This document shows, in pieces, positions 28,850 to 44,604 of a stretch of 64,000 nt of DNA (position 1 is its first letter; each line of letters begins with the position of its first letter). The DNA is taken from assembly GCF_014695375.1 (NCBI RefSeq), contig NZ_JACJOG010000002.1, positions 1 to 64,000 on the forward strand, given 5' to 3'. The notes under the pieces are model-generated. The model was given only the letters and a program-made list of their open reading frames with translations. It made no database searches and had not been told where the DNA came from. A program made the translations under genes and the position numbers. The stretch is from Coleofasciculus sp. FACHB-T130 (GTDB lineage: Bacteria > Cyanobacteriota > Cyanobacteriia > Cyanobacteriales > FACHB-T130).

Positions 28850-30292
28850 CTAATGGCTCAAAATTTGGAATTGCTCGGAATTGATCCGCCCCGCCTCGTA
28901 CAGCGTTTCGGCAACTTCCCCCATCCTCAGCACAGAATGACCCCGATAGCCGTTTTCCTGAAGCCGATCTTTGACTCCTTTTTCATGGTCGATCAACACC
29001 ACAATATCTTCGACATTTAATCCAGCATCTTTGAGTTTCATTGCCCCTTGCATAGCGCTCTTGCCGCTGATGAGAATATCATCGACAACGACAATGGTTT
29101 CTCCCGGTTGGAAATGACCCTCGATGACTCGTTGGGTGCCGTGAGATTTTACCTCCTTGCGCGGAAAAATCATCGGACGGTCTAGGCGTAGCGCTAACCC
29201 TGTAGCGGTGGGTAAGGAACCGTAAGGGATTCCAGCTATTCGGTCAAAGTGCAAATTTTTGAGAATCTCGGCGTAAGCACTCAAGATTTGATGGAAGATT
29301 TGCGGTTGGGAGATGATGACGCGCAGGTCGATGTAGTAGGGAAAAATCGCTCCAGAGGCTTGCACGCGATCGCCAAACATAATGCAACCCAGGTCGTAAA
29401 GTTGCAAAATCAAATCTCGGTTGGGAGAATGTTGCAAGAAGCAGACATCCGGAAGCCACAAGTCACAGGTGGGGCTTTCCTGGACAATTCTGAGCCGTTC
29501 TTCATTAACACTGTCGCGTAAGGCTTGGACAGCCTCAGCGGGGTGTTCGGCAGTTAATAAATCTAGAGGAACTGGCAGGAGTAGCCCTTCTCCATAGCTA
29601 TTTAAGCCAGCCGCTAGAATTTCACTTAAGTTTTGGTTTTCTGACCATCCCTGCACGAATATGAGGCGTTCTGGTGCAATATTGCGGATGCGAGTCAGAG
29701 TTTCCGGCATTGCAGCGCCCACTTCTAGCCCTAGTTGTTCTTGGGTGCCCCAAGTTTGCGCTTCTTTTATCAAATGGATGTAAAAGGGTAGCCCGGTGTC
29801 TGGATATTCTTGCAACACGGCGGCTGATGGGTTGTCAGTCGTACAGACCACAAAGACGGCTTTGCCAGGATAGACCAAAAAGGGAGCCGCTAAGTCAAGT
29901 CCTGGGTAAGGATTCAAGGTGACAGCATCCACTTTCCAGTCTTCAAAGACGGTTTGGGCAAACAGGGTGCTGGTGTTGAGGTCGCTGTGCTTGGCGTCTA
30001 AAATTACTGGAATGTCGGCGGGGATAGCTGCTAGGGTTTGCTGAAGGAGTTCTAAACCTGTTGCCCCCAGTGCTTGATAAAAGCCAAGCGTGAGTTTATA
30101 GGCGCAGACTAAATCGGCGGTTTGAGCGATCGCAAATTGTAGGCGATCGCTATGAAGAATGCGATCGACTGAAGAGAGAATGGTGCTAGCCCCATCGCGT
30201 TTAGCGAGATTCTCGATGTCTGGGTCGAGTCCTGCGTACAGTAAGCTTTGATTGCGCTCGATTGCTTTAAGTAGCTTATCGAAGAAGTTCAT
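28850..30292 (-). CDS. pyrFE: Bifunctional OMP decarboxylase / orotate phosphoribosyltransferase
   Basis: A 480-residue fusion that performs the last two steps of UMP synthesis. Residues about 1-270 are a type 2 OMP decarboxylase (LLYAGLDPDIENL, then the active-site region VILDAKHSDLNTS). Residues about 290-480 are orotate phosphoribosyltransferase (GIPYGSLPTATGLALRLDRP, then the PRPP loop TIVVVDDILISGKSAM). This fused gene is normal for cyanobacteria. A copy of part of the second domain lies decayed at 27513-27670. A 43-bp dispersed repeat sits just upstream of the start, between it and the TPR gene. Confidence 0.94.
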   Translation of the reverse strand: MNFFDKLLKAIERNQSLLYAGLDPDIENLAKRDGASTILSSVDRILHSDRLQFAIAQTADLVCAYKLTLGFYQALGATGLELLQQTLAAIPADIPVILDAKHSDLNTSTLFAQTVFEDWKVDAVTLNPYPGLDLAAPFLVYPGKAVFVVCTTDNPSAAVLQEYPDTGLPFYIHLIKEAQTWGTQEQLGLEVGAAMPETLTRIRNIAPERLIFVQGWSENQNLSEILAAGLNSYGEGLLLPVPLDLLTAEHPAEAVQALRDSVNEERLRIVQESPTCDLWLPDVCFLQHSPNRDLILQLYDLGCIMFGDRVQASGAIFPYYIDLRVIISQPQIFHQILSAYAEILKNLHFDRIAGIPYGSLPTATGLALRLDRPMIFPRKEVKSHGTQRVIEGHFQPGETIVVVDDILISGKSAMQGAMKLKDAGLNVEDIVVLIDHEKGVKDRLQENGYRGHSVLRMGEVAETLYEAGRINSEQFQILSH

Positions 30293-35479: not shown

Positions 35480-35791
35480 ATGCCACAGGCAGTGGGAACG
35501 ATTGAAACGTTAGGGTTCCCAGCTGTACTAGCAGCAGCAGACGCAATGGTTAAAGCTGGTGCAGTCACGCTGGTTCATTATGCACTTGTAGAAAAAGGGA
35601 ACTTTATGGTCTCCGTTCGGGGAAAAGTTTCTGAAGTCAACATCGCTGTTGAGGCAGGGATTAAAGCCGCAGAGACAGTCTACGGAGGTCAAGTGATCTC
35701 CCACTACATCATCCCCAATCCTACGGAAAATGTTGAAACTGTTATGCCCATTCATTTCACCCAAAAAGTTGAACAGTTCCGTATGTCGTAG
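35480..35791 (+). CDS. ccmK3: Carboxysome shell protein CcmK3
   Basis: A 103-residue single BMC domain, with [20 protein letters not shown] at the N-terminus. It differs from CcmK1/K2/K4 at the pore: the usual RxGSxR-type loop (residues 36-41) is LVEKGN, and Arg28 of K4 is Ala. This is the hallmark of CcmK3, which is reported not to form stable homohexamers but to mix with CcmK4 in the beta-carboxysome shell. It is followed by ccmK4 in the usual satellite-locus order, away from any main ccm operon in this window. Confidence 0.92.
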   Translation: MPQAVGTIETLGFPAVLAAADAMVKAGAVTLVHYALVEKGNFMVSVRGKVSEVNIAVEAGIKAAETVYGGQVISHYIIPNPTENVETVMPIHFTQKVEQFRMS

Positions 35792-36005: not shown

Positions 36006-36341
36006 ATGCCACAGGCAGTTGGATCGATAGAAACGAAAGGCTTTCCTGCTGTCCTAGCAGCGGCAGATGCGATGGTTAAAGCTGGAAGAGTTACCCTAGT
36101 CGGATATATCCGAGTTGGTAGCGCCCGTTTTAATGTCAATATTCGGGGCGATGTTTCAGAAGTGAAAACCTCAATGGAGGCGGGAATTGCCGCAGTAGAA
36201 AAAGTTTATGGTGGCGTTGTAGAATCCTGGGTGATCATTCCCCGTCCCCATGAAAATGTCGTGAGTGTACTGCCAATTGGCTTCACTGAAGACGTGCAAC
36301 AGTTCCGAGATGCTGTCGAACAGCCGATAGTACGCAGGTAG
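36006..36341 (+). CDS. ccmK4: Carboxysome shell protein CcmK4
   Basis: A 111-residue BMC-domain hexamer subunit. It starts [20 protein letters not shown] and keeps the pore loop RVGSAR (36-41), then [20 protein letters not shown] and a short C-terminal extension. It forms facets of the beta-carboxysome shell and probably admits bicarbonate and RuBP. AGGAG lies about 7 bases before the ATG. Spacing to ccmK3 is 214 bp, enough for its own promoter. A terminator hairpin lies 95 bp after the stop. Confidence 0.94.
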
Positions 36342-36801: not shown

Positions 36802-38049
36802 TTGCAAACATTACTTGCTAAAGCTTCATCGGTAGGTACTCGCCCTGAAATCGAAGTGCTGCTAATCTGTGCCAGCACTCGGATGGAATTGGAAAGAGTT
36901 GAGCGGCTAGTCACTTTACTCCAGGAAAATCATATAGATTGGGCAGAACTGATGCAAATGGCGACTGAGCATAGGGTGATGCCACTTTTGTATTCGAACC
37001 TAAACAGCACCTGTCCGGAAGCGGTTCCGAAGAATATTCTGGCTAAGTTGCGGGCTGATTTTCAAACCCTCACGCGACGCAGCCTATTTTTGAGCGGCGA
37101 ACTGGTTAGACTTGTGAATCTATTTGAAGCACAAGGAATTCCGGTTCTACCTTTCAAAGGTCCAGTATTAGCCGCTTCTGCCTACGGTAATTTGTTGAGA
37201 AGACAGTTCTGGGATTTAGACATTCTGGTGCAAGAAAGAGACATCGAAAGGGCAAAGGCGCTGTTTTTGTCTCAAGGATACCAGATGAAAATCGAGCGCA
37301 TCGAAGTGACTCAAGAACAGGAAGCGGCTTTTGTGCGATCGCCTCATATTCATCAATTTGTACGCGAAGCCGCCTATCCATTTAGAAACCACCAGAAAGG
37401 AGTGTTGGTGGAACTGCACTGGGGAGTAATGCCAAAGTATTTTTCTTTTCCCATCGATTCTAAAGAATTGTGGGATGACCTAGAGCCAGTCTCCATTGCT
37501 GGAACGACAGTTCCCAACCTCTCGCCAGAGAATTCGTTGCTAACCATCTGCGGACACGGAACCAAAGACTGTTGGACGCAACTGGCAAGAATCTGCGACG
37601 TAGCCGAACTTATCCGCAGCCATCCGCAGCTAGATTGGGTCAAACTGATGCAGCAAGCTAGCGCTAAGGGCGGTCAGCGAATGTTGTTTCTAGGTTTAAT
37701 GCTGGCACATCGTCTTCAGGGAACTGCCCTGCCAGATGATGTTTGGCAAAAGATTCAGGCTGACCCAGCGGTAGAATTGCTGGCGGCTGAAGTATGCGAA
37801 CAGCTTTTCCGTTCGTCGGACGGATTTGTTAAAGACGGGACAACCACCCGCTTCCATTTAAAAGCCAGAGAACGCCTGATTGACAGGCTGCGGTACTCTC
37901 TGAAATTAGCAATCACTCCGACTACTACCGACTGGTTGCTACTACCTTTGGCGGAATTTCCAGCTTTCCTTTACTATTTGCTGCGACCACTCAGGCTAAT
38001 AGGAGAGCAAATATTAAAAAGATTCAAGCTGAGTAAAAAAAACTTATGA
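36802..38049 (+). CDS. PF14907-type nucleotidyltransferase-like protein
   Basis: 415 residues. The start codon is TTG, supported by GGAG 7 bases upstream. Features of this family: HRVMPLLYSNL near residue 57, then LVNLFEAQGIPVLPFKGPVL and FWDLDILVQERDIERAKALF, in which WDLD carries the predicted metal-binding acidic pair. ELHWGVMPKYFSFPIDSKEL and ELIRSHPQLDWVKL follow. The family resembles nucleotide-transfer enzymes and appears in lasso-peptide tailoring loci, where one member is reported to add a sugar to the peptide. It opens the 36.8-44.6 kb cluster; a second member closes it. Terminator-like hairpins separate it from the PqqD gene. Confidence 0.8.
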   Translation: MQTLLAKASSVGTRPEIEVLLICASTRMELERVERLVTLLQENHIDWAELMQMATEHRVMPLLYSNLNSTCPEAVPKNILAKLRADFQTLTRRSLFLSGELVRLVNLFEAQGIPVLPFKGPVLAASAYGNLLRRQFWDLDILVQERDIERAKALFLSQGYQMKIERIEVTQEQEAAFVRSPHIHQFVREAAYPFRNHQKGVLVELHWGVMPKYFSFPIDSKELWDDLEPVSIAGTTVPNLSPENSLLTICGHGTKDCWTQLARICDVAELIRSHPQLDWVKLMQQASAKGGQRMLFLGLMLAHRLQGTALPDDVWQKIQADPAVELLAAEVCEQLFRSSDGFVKDGTTTRFHLKARERLIDRLRYSLKLAITPTTTDWLLLPLAEFPAFLYYLLRPLRLIGEQILKRFKLSKKNL

Positions 38050-38070
38050 TTTTCATGCTTAAACTATAAA

Positions 38071-38117
38071 ATTTATTCCTTAATCAAAATGGTAGTAAGT
38101 AAGGAATAAATCTTTTT
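38071..38117 (+). terminator. Terminator hairpin after the first nucleotidyltransferase gene
   Basis: Perfect 12-bp stem ATTTATTCCTTA/TAAGGAATAAAT with a 17-nt loop, followed by CTTTTT. It starts 21 bases after the stop codon. Confidence 0.65.
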
Positions 38118-38131
38118 CAATTTTAAACCGG

Positions 38132-38184
38132 ATACATATTATGAGCTTTAAATTTAAACTAAATCAAAAGCTCATAATATGTAT
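38132..38184. repeat. Perfect 18-bp AT-rich inverted repeat
   Basis: Arms 38132-38149 and 38167-38184 are exact complements (left arm begins ATACATATTATGAGC) around a 17-nt AT-only spacer. It lies between the first nucleotidyltransferase gene and the PqqD gene, close to where the PqqD promoter should be. The surrounding 309-bp gap holds no gene. Confidence 0.8.
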
Positions 38185-38358
38185 TGTTTGATAATTAATA
38201 TTATTTAAAAGCGTTAGTTTATAATATAAGCGGAATCATTATAAAGTCTATAAATTTAGTAATAAACCTAATTGGTTATACCTTGACATTAGAATATCTC
38301 AAGGTTAGCTTAGGGTTAAGAAAAGCGAAACAAAGCTTGATAGTATAGCAAAAAAATC

Positions 38359-38820
38359 ATGAATCATTCAGAGATATTTAAGGCGAATGCTCCTAAAGTT
38401 GTCCACGAAACGATTGATGGTGAAGTTGTAATCGTCAACTTGGATAAGGGAGATTATTATAGCTTAGTAAAAGTTGGGGCTGATATTTGGGAAGAAATTA
38501 TTAAAGGTACTTCCAAAAGCAATATTATCCAAAAAATAATCCAGTGCTACGATGGCGATCGCCAAAATATTGAAAATACTGTCAATGATTTTATTGCCAG
38601 ATTGCAGCAAGAAGAACTCATTACTCTTGATGGCACCGAAGATCCTAAAAATTTAAATATAGACAGCGCACCAAGCACCACAAACGACAATCCTGAAAAG
38701 CTGAGTTTTTCACCCCCAACTTTAGAAAAATATACAGATATGGAAGAATTGCTAGCTTTAGACCCCATTCACGAAGTGAATGAGGTGGTGGGCTGGCCTA
38801 ATGTTAAAGTTGAAGCCTGA
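38359..38820 (+). CDS. PqqD/RRE-like protein with leader-like C-terminal tail
   Basis: 153 residues in three parts. Residues 1-92 are a PqqD-type winged-helix fold (GEVVIVNLDKGDYYSLVKVG, then a helical part ending LQQEELITL); this fold is the RiPP recognition element that binds precursor leaders. Residues 93-115 are a Pro/Ser/Asn-rich linker. Residues 116-153 are a tail with FSPPTL, matching the [YF]xxPxL docking motif of lasso leaders, then YTDMEELLALDPIHEV and GWPNVKVEA. The tail reads like a precursor peptide attached to its own recognition domain. It precedes the HPr-kinase-like gene by 107 bp. Fold is confident; the precursor idea is inference. Confidence 0.85.
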   Translation: MNHSEIFKANAPKVVHETIDGEVVIVNLDKGDYYSLVKVGADIWEEIIKGTSKSNIIQKIIQCYDGDRQNIENTVNDFIARLQQEELITLDGTEDPKNLNIDSAPSTTNDNPEKLSFSPPTLEKYTDMEELLALDPIHEVNEVVGWPNVKVEA

Positions 38821-38927
38821 TTGAATCAGCATTTGGCATCATTATCAGCAGCTTCAAGGTGTATTGGGAAGGGGCAGTCGTCAGGATTTGCCCCTAGGTT
38901 TCAGCTAATTCCTTAAGTTTTTTCAAC

Positions 38928-40010
38928 ATGATGACTAACGAGTTGGCATCTGAGATTGCCACTAAAACAGAAGCGAAAGACCCTTTAGCCTTTTTTAATA
39001 CGGTTTATGAATTATACGAAAAAGCTGAAGCTGCATCTGGTTCTATTGACCGTTTTTATTGCTTAGGCGGGTTTAAAATTCGGTTGCGTTTTGCTGGTTC
39101 AGCTTTAATTTCCTACATGACACCTGCTTTAGGACATTTAGCTACAGAACCCGTTTCAGATCCAGCGCTGACAGTTTGTTTGTGGGATAGCGCCTCGACA
39201 AACACCGTAATGCCACCTCCACCTTGGCAAATAAATCATCATCATCCAAAGCGTGGGGAAATTATCGGGTTTACTAATGAGCGCATTCATACCAGTTTCC
39301 AATGGGGAGCGTTTGCGTTAAGTATTTTAGATAGCGATCGCAACCTGGGAATATATTGGGTTGAGACAACCGAACAACTTCCTTACTGGGAAGCAGGTTC
39401 TCCGCTACGGACAATTTTTAACGTCTGGATGAGTAAGCGGGGACTGCAACTGGTTCATGCGGGTGCAGTTGGAATGCCCAGTGGCGGCGTGTTGCTAGTC
39501 GGAAAAGGGGGGTCTGGTAAATCAACTACAGCTTTAACCTGCCTTAACTCTGAGCTTTTCTATGCCAGCGACGACTATAGTTTGATTACTTCCGACCCCA
39601 CTCCAACTGTTTTTAGCATTTACAGCACTGGCAAAAAAAATGCCGATGATGTTCAAAGATTGCCGTTTCTCGCTAAGGCAATTAGCAATAGCGATCGCTT
39701 AGATTCGGAAAAAGCGCTTTATTTCATCAACGACCATTTTCCCGAAAAAATCTTGCCCAGTTTTCCGCTTCAAGCTATCTTAATCCCCCGCATTACTGGG
39801 GGAAGCAATACCACGTTGAAAGCTACCTCATCAGCGGCAGGATTGGCAGCACTTGTTCCTAGTACAATCCTGCAATTGCCCGGTGCAGGTAAGGAAGCTT
39901 GTGAGCTGATGACAAAAACTGTTAGCCAGCTACCTTGTTATTATCTAGAACTCGGCACTGACCTGAAGCAAATTCCTGAAGTCATTTTAAGCTTACTTTC
40001 AAAGCAATAG
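38928..40010 (+). CDS. HPr-kinase-like serine kinase
   Basis: 360 residues. The C-terminal half is an HPr kinase/phosphorylase-like ATPase core: a P-loop GKGGSGKST at 192-200, preceded by VHAGAVGMPSGGVLLV and followed by the acidic loop YASDDYSLI. The N-terminal half is a separate unnamed domain. Relatives in lasso-peptide clusters phosphorylate the C-terminal residue of the peptide. There is no classical PTS gene nearby, so control of HPr is unlikely. It is 3 bp from the following glycosyltransferase and 107 bp from the PqqD gene, so all three probably form one transcript. Confidence 0.85.
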   Translation: MMTNELASEIATKTEAKDPLAFFNTVYELYEKAEAASGSIDRFYCLGGFKIRLRFAGSALISYMTPALGHLATEPVSDPALTVCLWDSASTNTVMPPPPWQINHHHPKRGEIIGFTNERIHTSFQWGAFALSILDSDRNLGIYWVETTEQLPYWEAGSPLRTIFNVWMSKRGLQLVHAGAVGMPSGGVLLVGKGGSGKSTTALTCLNSELFYASDDYSLITSDPTPTVFSIYSTGKKNADDVQRLPFLAKAISNSDRLDSEKALYFINDHFPEKILPSFPLQAILIPRITGGSNTTLKATSSAAGLAALVPSTILQLPGAGKEACELMTKTVSQLPCYYLELGTDLKQIPEVILSLLSKQ

Positions 40011-40013
40011 CCC

Positions 40014-40784
40014 ATGAATAATAAGGAATTCTTCGTTAGTGCGATCGTCCCTGTCTATAACGGAGAACAGTTTCTAGCAGAAGCTATTCAAAATATCCTC
40101 AATCAAAACTATCAGCCTCTAGAAATCATTGTTGTTGACGATGGCTCAACAGATAAAACGGCGGAAGTTGCTGCTCGCTATAAAGATAGTATTCACTATG
40201 TTTATCAGCCTAATAGCGGGCCATCAGCAGCTCGTAACCGTGGTTTAAGGATGGCAAAAGGGGATGCGATCGCTTTTCTAGATGTCGACGACTTGTGGTC
40301 TGAAAATAACCTAAAATTGCAAACAGATTACTTAGTATATAACCCATCAGTAGAGATTGTTCAAGGATTAATCCAAAACCTGAAAATTTCTCAGTTGACA
40401 CCAGAAGGTGCAATCTTTGAAAAACATTATCAGCCTTATAATTACATCAACTTGGGAAGTGCCCTTTATCGAAAATCCGTTTTTGATAAAATTGGCTTAT
40501 TTGATGAAAGTTTAAGTTTTGCTGAAGATGTTGATTGGTTTGTAAGAGCCTGGGAAAATAGGGTGTCAAAGGTGGTGCTGGAACAGGTGACGCTTTTTTA
40601 TCGAAGACACCAAGACAATATGACTGTGGGAAAAAATTTAATTGAATTGGGGTTTATTAAAATTTACAAGAAACATCTCGATCGGTGCAGGCAAAAAGGG
40701 CACTTTGCTAATAGTTCGCTACCAGGAATGCCTAAGATAAACGAATATCTGGGCGCGCCTCCGAATACGCCCAAATTTTTTTGA
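40014..40784 (+). CDS. GT2 family glycosyltransferase
   Basis: 256 residues with the GT-A layout: SAIVPVYNGEQFLAEAIQNI, the nucleotide-binding VVDDGSTDKTAEVA, NSGPSAARNRGLRMAKGD and the metal-binding DVDD in IAFLDVDDLW. A C-terminal acceptor region has SFAEDVDWFVRAWE and RRHQDNMT. No membrane helix is seen. It transfers a sugar from a nucleotide donor to an unknown acceptor. It is 3 bp after the kinase gene and about 40% similar by eye to the next glycosyltransferase, suggesting an old duplication. Confidence 0.93.
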   Translation: MNNKEFFVSAIVPVYNGEQFLAEAIQNILNQNYQPLEIIVVDDGSTDKTAEVAARYKDSIHYVYQPNSGPSAARNRGLRMAKGDAIAFLDVDDLWSENNLKLQTDYLVYNPSVEIVQGLIQNLKISQLTPEGAIFEKHYQPYNYINLGSALYRKSVFDKIGLFDESLSFAEDVDWFVRAWENRVSKVVLEQVTLFYRRHQDNMTVGKNLIELGFIKIYKKHLDRCRQKGHFANSSLPGMPKINEYLGAPPNTPKFF

Positions 40785-40839
40785 TGAAGAGCTAATTAGA
40801 CAGCAAATTTTAAAAAATCAAGTAGAAGGAGGTATCGGA

Positions 40840-41547
40840 ATGGAAAATCATCTACTAATCAGTGTCATCATCCCAGTATATAACTGCGAGCGCTATTTAG
40901 CTGAAGCGATTGAAAGCGTACTAGCTCAAACCTATCAATCCATAGAAATTATTGTCGTAGACGATGGTTCAACCGATGGTAGTGCAGAAGTCGCAAAACG
41001 CTTTGGCTCATTAGTGCGATACTATTTTCAAACTAACAGTGGTAGTGCTGCTGCCCGCAATCACGGCATAGAATTATCACAAGGTAACTTCTTTGCTTTT
41101 CTCGATGCTGATGATTTGTGGGTAGAAGATAAACTGGCAAGTCAAATGACAGCTTTTGAAAGCGAACCTGAACTAGATCTAGTATTCGGATTAGTCGAAC
41201 AGTTTTATAGCCCAGACTTAGAGGAGAGTATGAGGGCAAAAATCCACTGTCCTACTGAGTTAGTACCGGGACATATCCCCTCAGCCTTACTGATAAAACG
41301 AGATGCTTTTTTCCGTGTAGGCTCTTTTGAACCTAACTGGACTATAGCAGAATTTGCCAGTTGGTATGTGCGTGCTGTTGAGTTAAAACTTCGGATGAAG
41401 GTTTTACCATATTTGGTTGCAAAGCGACGTATTCATAAAAAAAATAAGGGAATTACAGAGCGCCAATTCCAAACTGAATATATTAAAATTCTTAAAGCTT
41501 CTCTTGACCGACGACGCGCCGCAGGTGATCGGGTAAACAACTCATAG
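40840..41547 (+). CDS. GT2 family glycosyltransferase
   Basis: 235 residues, the paralogue-like neighbour of the preceding gene: SVIIPVYNCERYLAEAIESV, VVDDGSTDGSAEVAKRFGSL, NSGSAAARNHGIELSQGN and DADD in AFLDADDLW. A strong Shine-Dalgarno, AAGGAGGT, precedes the ATG. The C-terminal half keeps GSFEPNWTIAEFASWYVRAV but has Ala-Glu-Phe where its neighbour has the acidic EDVDW, so acceptor handling may differ. It is 8 bp ahead of the SDR gene. Confidence 0.93.
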   Translation: MENHLLISVIIPVYNCERYLAEAIESVLAQTYQSIEIIVVDDGSTDGSAEVAKRFGSLVRYYFQTNSGSAAARNHGIELSQGNFFAFLDADDLWVEDKLASQMTAFESEPELDLVFGLVEQFYSPDLEESMRAKIHCPTELVPGHIPSALLIKRDAFFRVGSFEPNWTIAEFASWYVRAVELKLRMKVLPYLVAKRRIHKKNKGITERQFQTEYIKILKASLDRRRAAGDRVNNS

Positions 41548-41555
41548 TTATTGCC

Positions 41556-42446
41556 ATGAAAATCAATTTTAAAATTCGTTTAAAAGCCGCCTTAAAATCC
41601 TTCATTAATCCATCTCTATCTATCCCTCCAAAGCCAATTATTCAGCTTCAAGAAGTAGAGCCTTCTAGGGTAATAGATAATCAACTGTTAGCAGGGAAAA
41701 ATGTTTTGATAACTGGGGCTGGTAAAAATATTGGCAGAAGCATTGCCCTAGAGATGGCTAAACAAGGTGCAAATGTTTTTTTCACTGAAATTGATCGGGA
41801 AAGATGTGAAAAATTAGAACAAGAATTAACTAGCTATTCAGTTCAAGTTAAAAGTTTTCTTTCAAATATTACAAACAATGAAGATGTAGATGCTTTAAAA
41901 ACTTTTTTTGTGCAGAGCAATATTACTATTGATATACTGATTAACAATGCAGGTATTCAATTTGAAACAATAGGCATAAAAAATCTAAATTTAGATGAAT
42001 GGCATAAAACTTTTAATACAAATGTTTTCGGTCCCATGTATCTAACGAAGCTGATCTCAATCATGATGATAGATAAGCAAATTCAGGGAACTATTATATT
42101 TATTACTTCTTTACACCAAGAGACACTTGTACGTTGGCTTAGTTATAGTTCTTCAAAAGCTGCCTTAAAAATGATTATAGAAGAATTGGCTATCGACTTA
42201 GCAGCCTATGGGATCAGAGTGAACGGAATAGCTCCCGGTTGGGTAGCGGAAGATGACCAGGGAATTCCCCTCCCTCATAAATATACGCCGCTGCATCAAA
42301 GTTCAATAAGTCCTCGTTATATTGGTCGAGCGGCTGTTTATTTAGCCTCAGACTATTTTTCTAAATTTACTACGGGAACAGTGTTAAAGATTGATGCAGG
42401 ACTATCATTATATAATTATCGTGTTAGCCAACATCCATCTCAGTAG
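41556..42446 (+). CDS. Short-chain dehydrogenase/reductase
   Basis: 296 residues. A 45-residue extension precedes the Rossmann fold, which opens with VLITGAGKNIGRSIALEMAK, followed by the acidic cofactor residue in FFTEIDRERC. NNAGIQF and the catalytic Ser-Tyr-Lys set (FITSLHQE, then YSSSK) follow, as does GIRVNGIAPGWVAEDDQGIP. It therefore keeps an intact SDR active site and probably uses NAD. The glucose-dehydrogenase-like branch is closest by motif. The 3' end overlaps the next frame. The gene is AT-rich compared with the rest of the window. Confidence 0.9.
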   Translation: MKINFKIRLKAALKSFINPSLSIPPKPIIQLQEVEPSRVIDNQLLAGKNVLITGAGKNIGRSIALEMAKQGANVFFTEIDRERCEKLEQELTSYSVQVKSFLSNITNNEDVDALKTFFVQSNITIDILINNAGIQFETIGIKNLNLDEWHKTFNTNVFGPMYLTKLISIMMIDKQIQGTIIFITSLHQETLVRWLSYSSSKAALKMIIEELAIDLAAYGIRVNGIAPGWVAEDDQGIPLPHKYTPLHQSSISPRYIGRAAVYLASDYFSKFTTGTVLKIDAGLSLYNYRVSQHPSQ

Positions 42447-43437
42447 AAGAACCATATTATTTTTTATTTTCTTACTTGGATTTGGCTTTTTCATAAGTGT
42501 ATTCAGTCAAAATAAAAGAAAAATGTTTTTGCTAGAGAAATGGATAAAAACTCTATTAGCTTCTGGTTGTCTAAATGCAAAATCTCAATGTTTTAAAACT
42601 ATTTTCCCTAAAAAAGTAAAGCTCGAACGGGTGGCAACCGGATTTAAATTTACTGAAGGACCCATTTGGTTTGCTGAAGAAAAGTATCTCCTCTTTAGTG
42701 ATATTCCAGCTAACAAAATCTTTAAACTGACTCCCAGTAGTGACGTAACAGTCTTTAGAGAGCCTAGCCATAATTCCAATGGTTTGACTAGAGATAAGCA
42801 AGGACGACTCATTGCTTGTGAACACGGAACGCGCCGTGTCACCCGCATGGAAAAAGATGGTTTGATTACTGTCTTAGCTGAAAAATTTCAAGGTCAGAAA
42901 CTGAATAGTCCCAACGATATTGTCGTGAAAAGTGACGGTGCTATCTACTTCACAGATCCGCCTTATGGCATCAAACCCGAACAGCAGGAACAACCAATCC
43001 AGGGGGTTTACCGCCTCTCTCCTGATGGCAAAGAAATTATTGTCGTAGCCGACGATTTTGATAAACCCAATGGGCTAGCATTTTCACCGGATGAAAAAAA
43101 GCTTTATATCGACGATTCTGAACGCCGTCATATTCGCGTGTTCGATGTTCAAGCTGACGGTAAACTTGCTAATAGCTGCATCTTTTACAATATTAATGGG
43201 AAAAGACCGGGTTTACCTGATGGGATGAAAGTAGACGTGCAAGGACATATCTACTGCACAGGTGCAGGAGGCGTGTGGGTTTTTGATCCAGAAGGGAATC
43301 ATTTGGGAACAATTGTGACTCCGGAGGTGCCAGCGAATTGTGCTTGGGGAGATGATGATTTGCAAAGTCTTTATATTACTGCTGGCACTTCTGTTTACAA
43401 AATTCGAGTAAATGTTCCAGGCATCAAAGTGCCTTAA
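42391..43437 (+). CDS. SMP-30/gluconolactonase-like protein
   Basis: Up to 348 residues. The six-bladed propeller core starts near residue 70: FTEGPIWFAEEKYLLFSDIP, HNSNGLTRDKQGRLIACEHG, LNSPNDIVVKSDGAIYFTDP and NGLAFSPDEKKLYIDDSERR carry the metal-binding Glu, Asn and Asp of the family. It should hydrolyse a lactone or a related ester. The start is uncertain: ATG 42391 and GTG 42421 include a hydrophobic stretch, TILFFIFLLGFGFFISVFS, that would act as a signal or anchor. ATG 42523 gives a soluble form. The first options overlap the SDR gene. With the upstream SDR it suggests an oxidise-then-open-lactone sugar step. Confidence 0.87.
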   Translation: MMQDYHYIIIVLANIHLSRRTILFFIFLLGFGFFISVFSQNKRKMFLLEKWIKTLLASGCLNAKSQCFKTIFPKKVKLERVATGFKFTEGPIWFAEEKYLLFSDIPANKIFKLTPSSDVTVFREPSHNSNGLTRDKQGRLIACEHGTRRVTRMEKDGLITVLAEKFQGQKLNSPNDIVVKSDGAIYFTDPPYGIKPEQQEQPIQGVYRLSPDGKEIIVVADDFDKPNGLAFSPDEKKLYIDDSERRHIRVFDVQADGKLANSCIFYNINGKRPGLPDGMKVDVQGHIYCTGAGGVWVFDPEGNHLGTIVTPEVPANCAWGDDDLQSLYITAGTSVYKIRVNVPGIKVP

Positions 43438-43473
43438 TTGATTACCATCGTTTAAAATTTTCAATTACAAAAG

Positions 43474-44604
43474 ATGCGTAAAATGAATCTATATAATAAG
43501 GATAGCTGTGACTGGCTTAATTCCGAGCAAAAATTGCTTTTGCGGGCAGCACTGTTGCAGGGAGAAGAGGCAATTGATTCTTGGAATCAATGGAAAGCAT
43601 CTGCCGATATTGAGAATCTCGATGTAGAATCCTATCGATTGCTGCCTTTACTTTATCGCAACTTATCCGCACATGGCGTGACGGATCTGCATATGGCAAG
43701 ACTGAAGGGAGTTTACCGACGCACATGGTGTGAAACCCAAGTTTTGTTGCAACAAATCGCAGCTATTATCAGTTGTTTTCAGAATGATGGTATCACAACA
43801 ATGCTGCTCAAGGATGCAGCTTTGAATATACATTATTACAAAGATTATGGCTCCCGAATGATACATAATTTTGATCTTTTAGTTCATCCAACAGATGCTT
43901 TAGCAGCCATAAGTTTGTTACAAAAAATTGGCTGGAGAGCTAAAGAAAAAATACCAGTTAAAATTACGCCTTTCTCTCATAATCTAGGATTTGAGAATGA
44001 ATTAAAACAACAGTTTAATCTTCGCTGGCATCTGTTCGCAGATGGTTTTCAAAAAGATGCTGAAAAATATTTCTGGGATAGTGCGATATTAACCAACCTG
44101 GATGACTTACCAACTTATGTTTTAAATCCTACCGAGCAGCTATTGTACGTTTGTGTATATGGAGGAATGAGTAATTTTGTTTTTCCAATTAGTCGGCTAG
44201 CTGATGCCGCAATACTTCTTAACTCATACCAATCAGAAATTGATTGGAACCGACTGGTAGCTTTAGCCCAAAACTACCGCTTAATTTTGCCCCTACAAAA
44301 TGTATTGACGAAATTACATGAAATCCTAAATACGCCAATCCCTCTGTCGATTTTACAAGAAGTACAAAATATACCAATTTCTAAATTTGAGCGCAGCGAA
44401 TATCAGCTCACGAGTAGACCAGAAAAATCAGTCCACGAGCGTTTGATAAGCAGATATCTACAATATTCAAGAGCAGTAAATACAGATAATTTTAAATTAA
44501 ACTTTTTAGGTTTTCCTAGATATCTACAATATATCTGGGGTTTGGAACACTTATGGGAAGTTCCATTGCAAGCAATGATTCGGGGTATAAAAAGGCTCTG
44601 GTAA
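43474..44604 (+). CDS. PF14907-type nucleotidyltransferase-like protein
   Basis: 376 residues; a second ATG three codons in is equally possible. It shares the layout of the gene at 36802: SYRLLPLLYRNLSAHG, then DGITTMLLKDAALNIHYYKD, SRMIHNFDLLVHPTDALAAI with NFDL in place of WDLD, RWHLFADGFQKDAEKYFWDS and the C-terminal helical part. The replacement of WDLD by NFDL leaves one acid less, so catalysis may be altered. It closes the cluster that began with its relative. No terminator is clear in the 220 bp before htpX. Confidence 0.75.
   Translation: MRKMNLYNKDSCDWLNSEQKLLLRAALLQGEEAIDSWNQWKASADIENLDVESYRLLPLLYRNLSAHGVTDLHMARLKGVYRRTWCETQVLLQQIAAIISCFQNDGITTMLLKDAALNIHYYKDYGSRMIHNFDLLVHPTDALAAISLLQKIGWRAKEKIPVKITPFSHNLGFENELKQQFNLRWHLFADGFQKDAEKYFWDSAILTNLDDLPTYVLNPTEQLLYVCVYGGMSNFVFPISRLADAAILLNSYQSEIDWNRLVALAQNYRLILPLQNVLTKLHEILNTPIPLSILQEVQNIPISKFERSEYQLTSRPEKSVHERLISRYLQYSRAVNTDNFKLNFLGFPRYLQYIWGLEHLWEVPLQAMIRGIKRLW

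Follow-up and report, generated by a model that had tools for sequence, protein, structure and literature searches.

The window analysed here, a stretch of 64,000 nucleotides from Coleofasciculus sp. FACHB-T130 (contig NZ_JACJOG010000002.1), carries on its forward strand an ORF (38359-38820, boundaries matching exactly) that encodes a PqqD-fold (RRE) protein of 153 aa with a conserved C-terminal tail. Four parts can be recognized in this protein. The RRE/PqqD domain (residues 14-92, 38398-38634) is delimited by Pfam PF05402, by profile matches and by superposition of its model on TbiB1, and is followed by a variable linker (residues 93-116, 38635-38706) of low identity and low pLDDT. The tail consists of a leader-type docking segment, FSPPTLEKY (residues 117-125, 38707-38733), assigned from the alignment, from a bridge and strand in the AF2 model and from covariation with RRE position 74, and of a conserved core-like motif, TDMEELLALDPIHEVNEVVGWP (residues 126-147, 38734-38799), assigned from column conservation and pN/pS.

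All genes flanking the tail-bearing ORF from 36802 to 44604 that are described below lie on the forward strand. Immediately upstream, 36802-38049 encodes a nucleotidyltransferase-like protein of the NTP_transf_5 family (PF14907, 8.8e-65), and immediately downstream, 38928-40010 encodes an HprK-like kinase with the residues H177, K198, D215 and D216, matching Hpr_kinase_C weakly (0.012) and HprK_rel_B at 6e-6, below the cut-off. These are followed by two GT2 glycosyltransferases (40014-40784 and 40840-41547; PF00535, 2.6e-34 and 2.4e-36), both of a kind that recurs beside the tail-protein family, and by two recurrent cyanobacterial neighbours, a short-chain dehydrogenase (41556-42446; Pfam), found at six other cyanobacterial loci with 58-70% identity, and an SMP-30/gluconolactonase-like protein (42391-43437; PF08450, 7e-58). 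A second NTP_transf_5 protein (43474-44604, 3.3e-32) has a partly degenerate catalytic motif (HNFDLLV), in which Asn replaces the first Asp of D-x-D and KD stands instead of KG, and it may be catalytically impaired. Just upstream of this group lie two small proteins (35480-35791 and 36006-36341) which we take to be CcmK carboxysome shell proteins, and further away, on the reverse strand (28850-30292), a protein of 480 aa that is presumably an orotidine-5'-phosphate decarboxylase/orotate phosphoribosyltransferase fusion.

The PqqD-like nature of the N-terminal domain, proposed in the initial annotation, was borne out, and this domain can be classed as an RRE of the lasso B1 type. Pfam PqqD (PF05402) matches residues 22-88 (1e-14), and a profile built from nine full-length homologues and run against the whole PDB recovered TbiB1 (1.3e-13), PbaB1 (1.5e-12), TfuB1 (3.8e-4) and, weakly, LppB (0.061), with nothing relevant below. 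All four are lasso or LPP recognition proteins whose structures have been solved with leader peptides. The AF2 model of the window protein superposes on TbiB1 with Z 14.2 (rmsd 2.1 over 88 residues) and on TfuB1 with Z 12.1, and the model of a homologue, L001, again has TbiB1 and TfuB1 as its best structural matches. In the alignment, the PbaB1 groove positions Y39, L41, I44, I48, L65, Y69, F83, L87 and L92 have as counterparts Y34, L36, V39, I43, I60, Y64, F78, L82 and L87, in the same order, and the window RRE thus keeps the leader-binding groove positions.

The FSPPTL motif (residues 117-122), which had first drawn attention to the tail as a match to a leader docking motif, is not evidence when taken alone: the pattern [YWF]xxPx[LVIFA] arises in 14% of shuffles of the whole protein and in 9% of shuffles of residues 93-153 only, so that its occurrence is unremarkable. 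Conservation, in contrast, shows that the tail is real and not a chance motif. Across homologues the C-terminal segment that follows the linker reads FxxPxLxKYTDMxELLxLDPIHEVxExGWP, and pairs drawn from 13 cyanobacterial orthologues are on average 76% identical in the tail, against 51% in the domain and 20% in the linker. The corresponding pN/pS values are 0.18 for the tail (residues 117-147), 0.45 for the domain and 0.80 for the linker, to be read as relative only because synonymous sites are near saturation, and a second family tested gave the same picture (identity 77% in the tail against 55% in the RRE; pN/pS 0.19 for the tail, 0.44 for the RRE and 0.65 for the linker). On these figures the tail is under stronger purifying selection than the RRE domain, and no other part of the protein is as conserved.

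In an alignment of 40 members, D127, L132, D135 and P136 are invariant, as are the LL and DP pairs, and 38 members have H138. As its first aromatic the motif mostly has Phe, in some members Tyr, and Pro120 is mainly kept in cyanobacteria and Chloroflexota and not in a family of small genomes (1.6-2.5 Mb) that belongs to the same phylum as the cyanobacteria. There is no conserved Ser/Thr column in the tail of these 40 members; the T126 column holds 18 T, 12 N, 5 S, 4 D and 1 R.

Models of the full-length protein (residues 1-153) were computed from an input alignment of two rows only, the window protein and L001. Among the five models obtained (74, 65, 49, 46, 41) only the best was confident, with a pLDDT near 90 in the RRE, near 40 in the linker, about 75 over tail residues 111-130 and near 40 at the C-terminus. 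Its tail is predicted to form a bridge (115-116), a strand (123-125) and a helix (128-132) before becoming disordered, and when L001, which is 38% identical, was modelled in turn, the corresponding strand and helix appeared. In both models the strand starts at or right after the motif Leu (Leu122 in the window protein). In the PbaB1-PbaA complex, Y38-N40 of PbaB1 pair with leader residues -9 to -7, located right after the motif Leu (PMC13381572), and the profile alignment places Y33-S35 of the window protein at Y38-N40. From the predicted secondary structure and this homology we infer the placement and contacts of the tail in the groove. In a structural comparison with VIA-align, one match runs along the tail to residue 129, with NisB (4wd9), a chain that has the NisA leader attached C-terminally; at an rmsd of 5.7, and not reproduced with the L001 model, this superposition would be a weak pointer to docking.

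A further line of evidence comes from position 74 of the window RRE, which aligns with D70 of LppB, a residue that hydrogen-bonds the leader Tyr (PMC13381572). This position is Asp in nine of ten lasso B1-like proteins of related genomes and in TbiB1, TfuB1 and LppB, and Gln in the Trp-binding PbaB1. Outside the small-genome family, the three Tyr-tailed proteins L063, L065 and L101 carry Asp, whereas the 18 Phe-tailed members carry Thr, Ser, Ala or Glu and never Asp, the Glu residues belonging to three close Chloroflexota members. For independent rows the chance of such a 3 versus 18 pattern would be 1 in 1330, but these rows are not independent. Read by eye, position 74 is His in Tyr-tailed L093 and L094, Ala in Phe-tailed L089 and Val in L092, and the small-genome family departs from the rule. 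A pattern of this kind is expected if the first aromatic of the tail fills the pocket, whether in its own chain or in that of a like molecule.

The initial annotation had proposed a self-docking design, and that part of it which concerns a fused, conserved, leader-type segment stands, the segment being predicted to be docked. Linkers of 13-36 residues (19-36 in cyanobacteria) suffice for the motif to reach the groove. That the tail docks in the groove of its own RRE has moderate support from the models and the covariation, short of proof, and such docking may occur in cis or in a domain-swapped arrangement.

To define the distribution of the architecture, homologues were searched in 60 relatives, 386 genomes of the Cyanobacteriota phylum and 350 Chloroflexota genomes, and full-length members were found in cyanobacteria, in the small-genome family and in Chloroflexota. 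No viral contig with the tail protein was found, and the only plasmid match is that of Crinalium, where the locus (L114, 5896-14180) resides on the 44-kb mobilizable plasmid pCRI9333.04, a location that fits horizontal spread. Genes annotated at this locus encode a PqqD protein, a nucleotidyltransferase, an HPr kinase, an FkbM methyltransferase and a glycosyltransferase, and an SMP-30/gluconolactonase-like protein also adjoins the homologue.

The same partners recur at most loci. An HprK-like kinase is nearby in 34 of 35 further loci and an NTP_transf_5 protein, mostly with its D-x-D kept, in 31 of the 35; GT2 enzymes also recur, and an MsbA-like ABC transporter adjoins the Chloroflexota members. 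All 37 aligned kinase rows have an intact catalytic His-Lys-Asp-Asp set, which is needed in paeninodin-type kinases (PMC9266682). The functional link to the nearby kinase and nucleotidyltransferase-like proteins suggested from the window alone is thus supported by these counts.

A stand-alone tail peptide next to PqqD genes, as the initial annotation had envisaged, was not found in the 736 genomes of Cyanobacteriota and Chloroflexota: open frames with a tail match at E 0.01 or better are all 146 aa or longer, and a search relaxed to E 10 in seven genomes returned unconvincing matches only. Likewise, no conserved small leader-bearing ORF was found in 36 neighbourhoods and in the 30-50 kb section of the window. 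Clusters of small ORFs near the loci were considered as precursors and rejected, as they look like shadows of the neighbouring genes, read in antisense or out of frame.

Natural fusions give further insight into the tail. In G303, a single protein of 649 aa (L063, 8171-10120) has the order RRE, tail, a partial second RRE recognized by eye, and HprK; the tail is internal in this protein, so a free C-terminus is not required. Besides this fusion, G303 encodes two more copies of the tail protein (L064 and L065). In the small-genome family, a second RRE is fused C-terminally to the kinase in 17 of 18 cases, one checked by BLAST (36% identity) and the rest read by eye (L066 7398-8942 and 16 similar loci among L067-L084, many of them ending in NELC(I/V)K). 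These kinase-fused RREs present a docking-like strand and lack DPIHEV..GW, and comparison of the two kinds of protein suggests that the docking strand and the DPIHEV..GW motif may be separable functions. The L066, L076 and L084 loci also encode an FkbM methyltransferase, a DUF4422 protein, GT8-like and capsule-synthesis-like enzymes, split transketolase-like genes and aldo-keto reductases, a set that suggests an unusual surface glycan.

The nearest described systems are the LPP systems of Bacillota (LppA/K/B/S/D/N), reported in 2026, which comprise an RRE, an HprK-like kinase, an NTP transferase, an archaeal-type signal peptidase, an MsbA-like exporter and a separate precursor with the consensus YxxPxVLxHQxIxFETxxS, and which place multiple phosphates on one Ser and are encoded in glycosyltransferase-rich loci (PMC13381572). 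Both in the window and at most of the further loci, a discrete RRE, an HprK-like kinase and an NTP transferase likewise occur together in polysaccharide-rich surroundings; the MsbA-like transporter of the Chloroflexota loci and a YxxPx[V/L]-type docking segment are also shared. However, the leader-type segment is here fused to the RRE and no separate precursor of the YxxPxVLxHQxIxFETxxS type was found, the tail has no conserved Ser acceptor, and the published LPP consensus does not include DPIHEV..GWP. In addition, a SipW-like archaeal-type signal peptidase (TIGR02228) was over the cut-off in none of 24 genomes, that of the window included.

With the paeninodin and pseudomycoidin lasso systems the tail-bearing loci share the B1-type RRE fold, the His-Lys-Asp-Asp kinase and the NTP_transf_5 partner, yet no separate lasso precursor was found near the loci and the lasso B2 leader peptidase (Transglut_core3, PF13471) is absent from the window genome. 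This family was over the cut-off in seven of 24 genomes searched, away from the tail-protein loci, and no Asn-synthetase-like macrolactam cyclase was found among the Pfam-scanned flanking genes or annotated beside the Crinalium homologue. Tail-bearing RREs are also placed outside the cluster (support 83/86) that lasso B1 proteins of the same order form. Because two LPP-defining features and one lasso-defining feature are missing, the system was filed as neither.

Other precedents are more distant. The NCBIfam families TIGR04352 and TIGR04355 (HprK-related kinase A/B) describe a kinase beside a PqqD-family protein, as is the case here, but the window kinase scores 18.7 and 25.5 bits against a cut-off of 200. 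Borosins and engineered LynD resemble the present proteins in that a leader or substrate is supplied in cis; they differ in that borosin cores are fused to the modifying methyltransferase and not to an RRE, and in that LynD leader-enzyme fusions are artificial. A literature search, with subscription journals mostly outside its scope, returned no description of an RRE with a natural fused leader and no match for the string DPIHEV.

Taking this evidence together, we give roughly even chances to a reading in which the tail-bearing RRE is a permanently self-docked leader-type adaptor for the kinase, nucleotidyltransferase and glycosyltransferase machinery. FxxPxLxxY would sit in the protein's own leader groove by strand addition beside residues 33-35, with Phe117 in pocket 1 and Leu122 in pocket 2, and the docked segment would stabilise the RRE. 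A built-in segment may have this effect, since in the absence of a leader LppB is not soluble and PbaB1 folds only marginally (PMC13381572). The helix and DPIHEV..GWP would then present a permanent docking platform for the kinase, the NTP_transf_5 protein and/or the glycosyltransferase; that DPIHEV..GWP forms the recruiting surface is our inference, and no partner of the motif emerged computationally. The protein would work like the leader-bound RRE of the LPP and paeninodin pathways, except that its leader would never be released and would not be a phospho-acceptor. The most natural guess for the kinase acceptor would be a polysaccharide- or peptide-linked one, made by the surrounding glycan locus.

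The initial annotation had regarded the tail as a possible kinase substrate, and the data do not favour this. Phosphorylation of the tail was rejected as the main reading given the lack of a conserved Ser/Thr column; since, moreover, LppK accepts only Ser (PMC13381572) and the G303 tail is internal, the tail is unlikely to be a phospho-acceptor, and a released phosphopeptide is unlikely. The missing Ser/Thr column and the restriction of LppK to Ser also weigh on the idea of an RRE-fused precursor, in which the tail would be leader and acceptor in one and would be modified in cis by the kinase, the NTP_transf_5 protein and the glycosyltransferases to yield a protein-bound phospho- or glyco-peptide. 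Paeninodin, pseudomycoidin and LPP pathways do use the same enzyme set on a leader-bearing peptide (PMC9266682, PMC13381572), no separate precursor was found near the loci, the window genome has no lasso B2 peptidase, and the constraint on the tail is of the kind shown by a functional core; modification would nevertheless need Asp, His, Trp, Tyr/Phe or non-conserved residues, and we hold this idea to be unlikely. Slightly more doubtful still is its full form, a RiPP-like system in which precursor and RRE form one permanent fusion and a phospho/glycan modification of the tail is made in cis by the HprK-like kinase, NTP_transf_5 and GT2 enzymes; if it were true, the RRE protein itself would be the carrier of a peptide-linked glycan.

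Alternatively, the tail could be unrelated to peptide modification, a plain C-terminal extension through which the PqqD-fold scaffold of a polysaccharide locus is stabilised or oligomerised. The richness of the loci in glycosyltransferases, the existence of RRE-like folds outside RiPPs (MINA53 and NO66 among the structure matches) and the insolubility or instability that discrete RREs can show without leader (PMC13381572) all agree with such an extension, but the closest solved relatives are leader-binding RREs, the kinase and NTP_transf_5 form a known RiPP-tailoring pair, and DPIHEV..GW lies beyond the docked segment and yet is invariant, which leaves it improbable. An autoinhibitory pseudo-leader, blocking the groove until displaced by a precursor encoded elsewhere, agrees with the kept groove positions, the leader mimicry of the tail and the lasso B1/B2 genes present elsewhere in some of these genomes, but has a slim probability, as a blocking peptide would not require a helix and a DPIHEV..GWP this strongly conserved, no conserved leader-bearing small ORF was found near the 35 further loci and the window genome lacks the B2 peptidase.

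Returning to the self-docked adaptor, a leader-type tail fused to an RRE is a widespread architecture of which our literature search found no description. Among PF05402 proteins, 21% exceed discrete-RRE size without another annotated domain (PMC12710340), and the tail-bearing RRE is a concrete case among them. In cyanobacteria and related groups, tail-bearing RREs appear to mark a branch of the systems that modify peptides with phosphate and sugar. Cassettes of HprK, NTP transferase and RRE in polysaccharide loci are newly recognised, and a leader segment built into the RRE would offer a one-protein handle on the recruitment of these enzymes, in which the leader peptide can be a fixed part and not a disposable tag.
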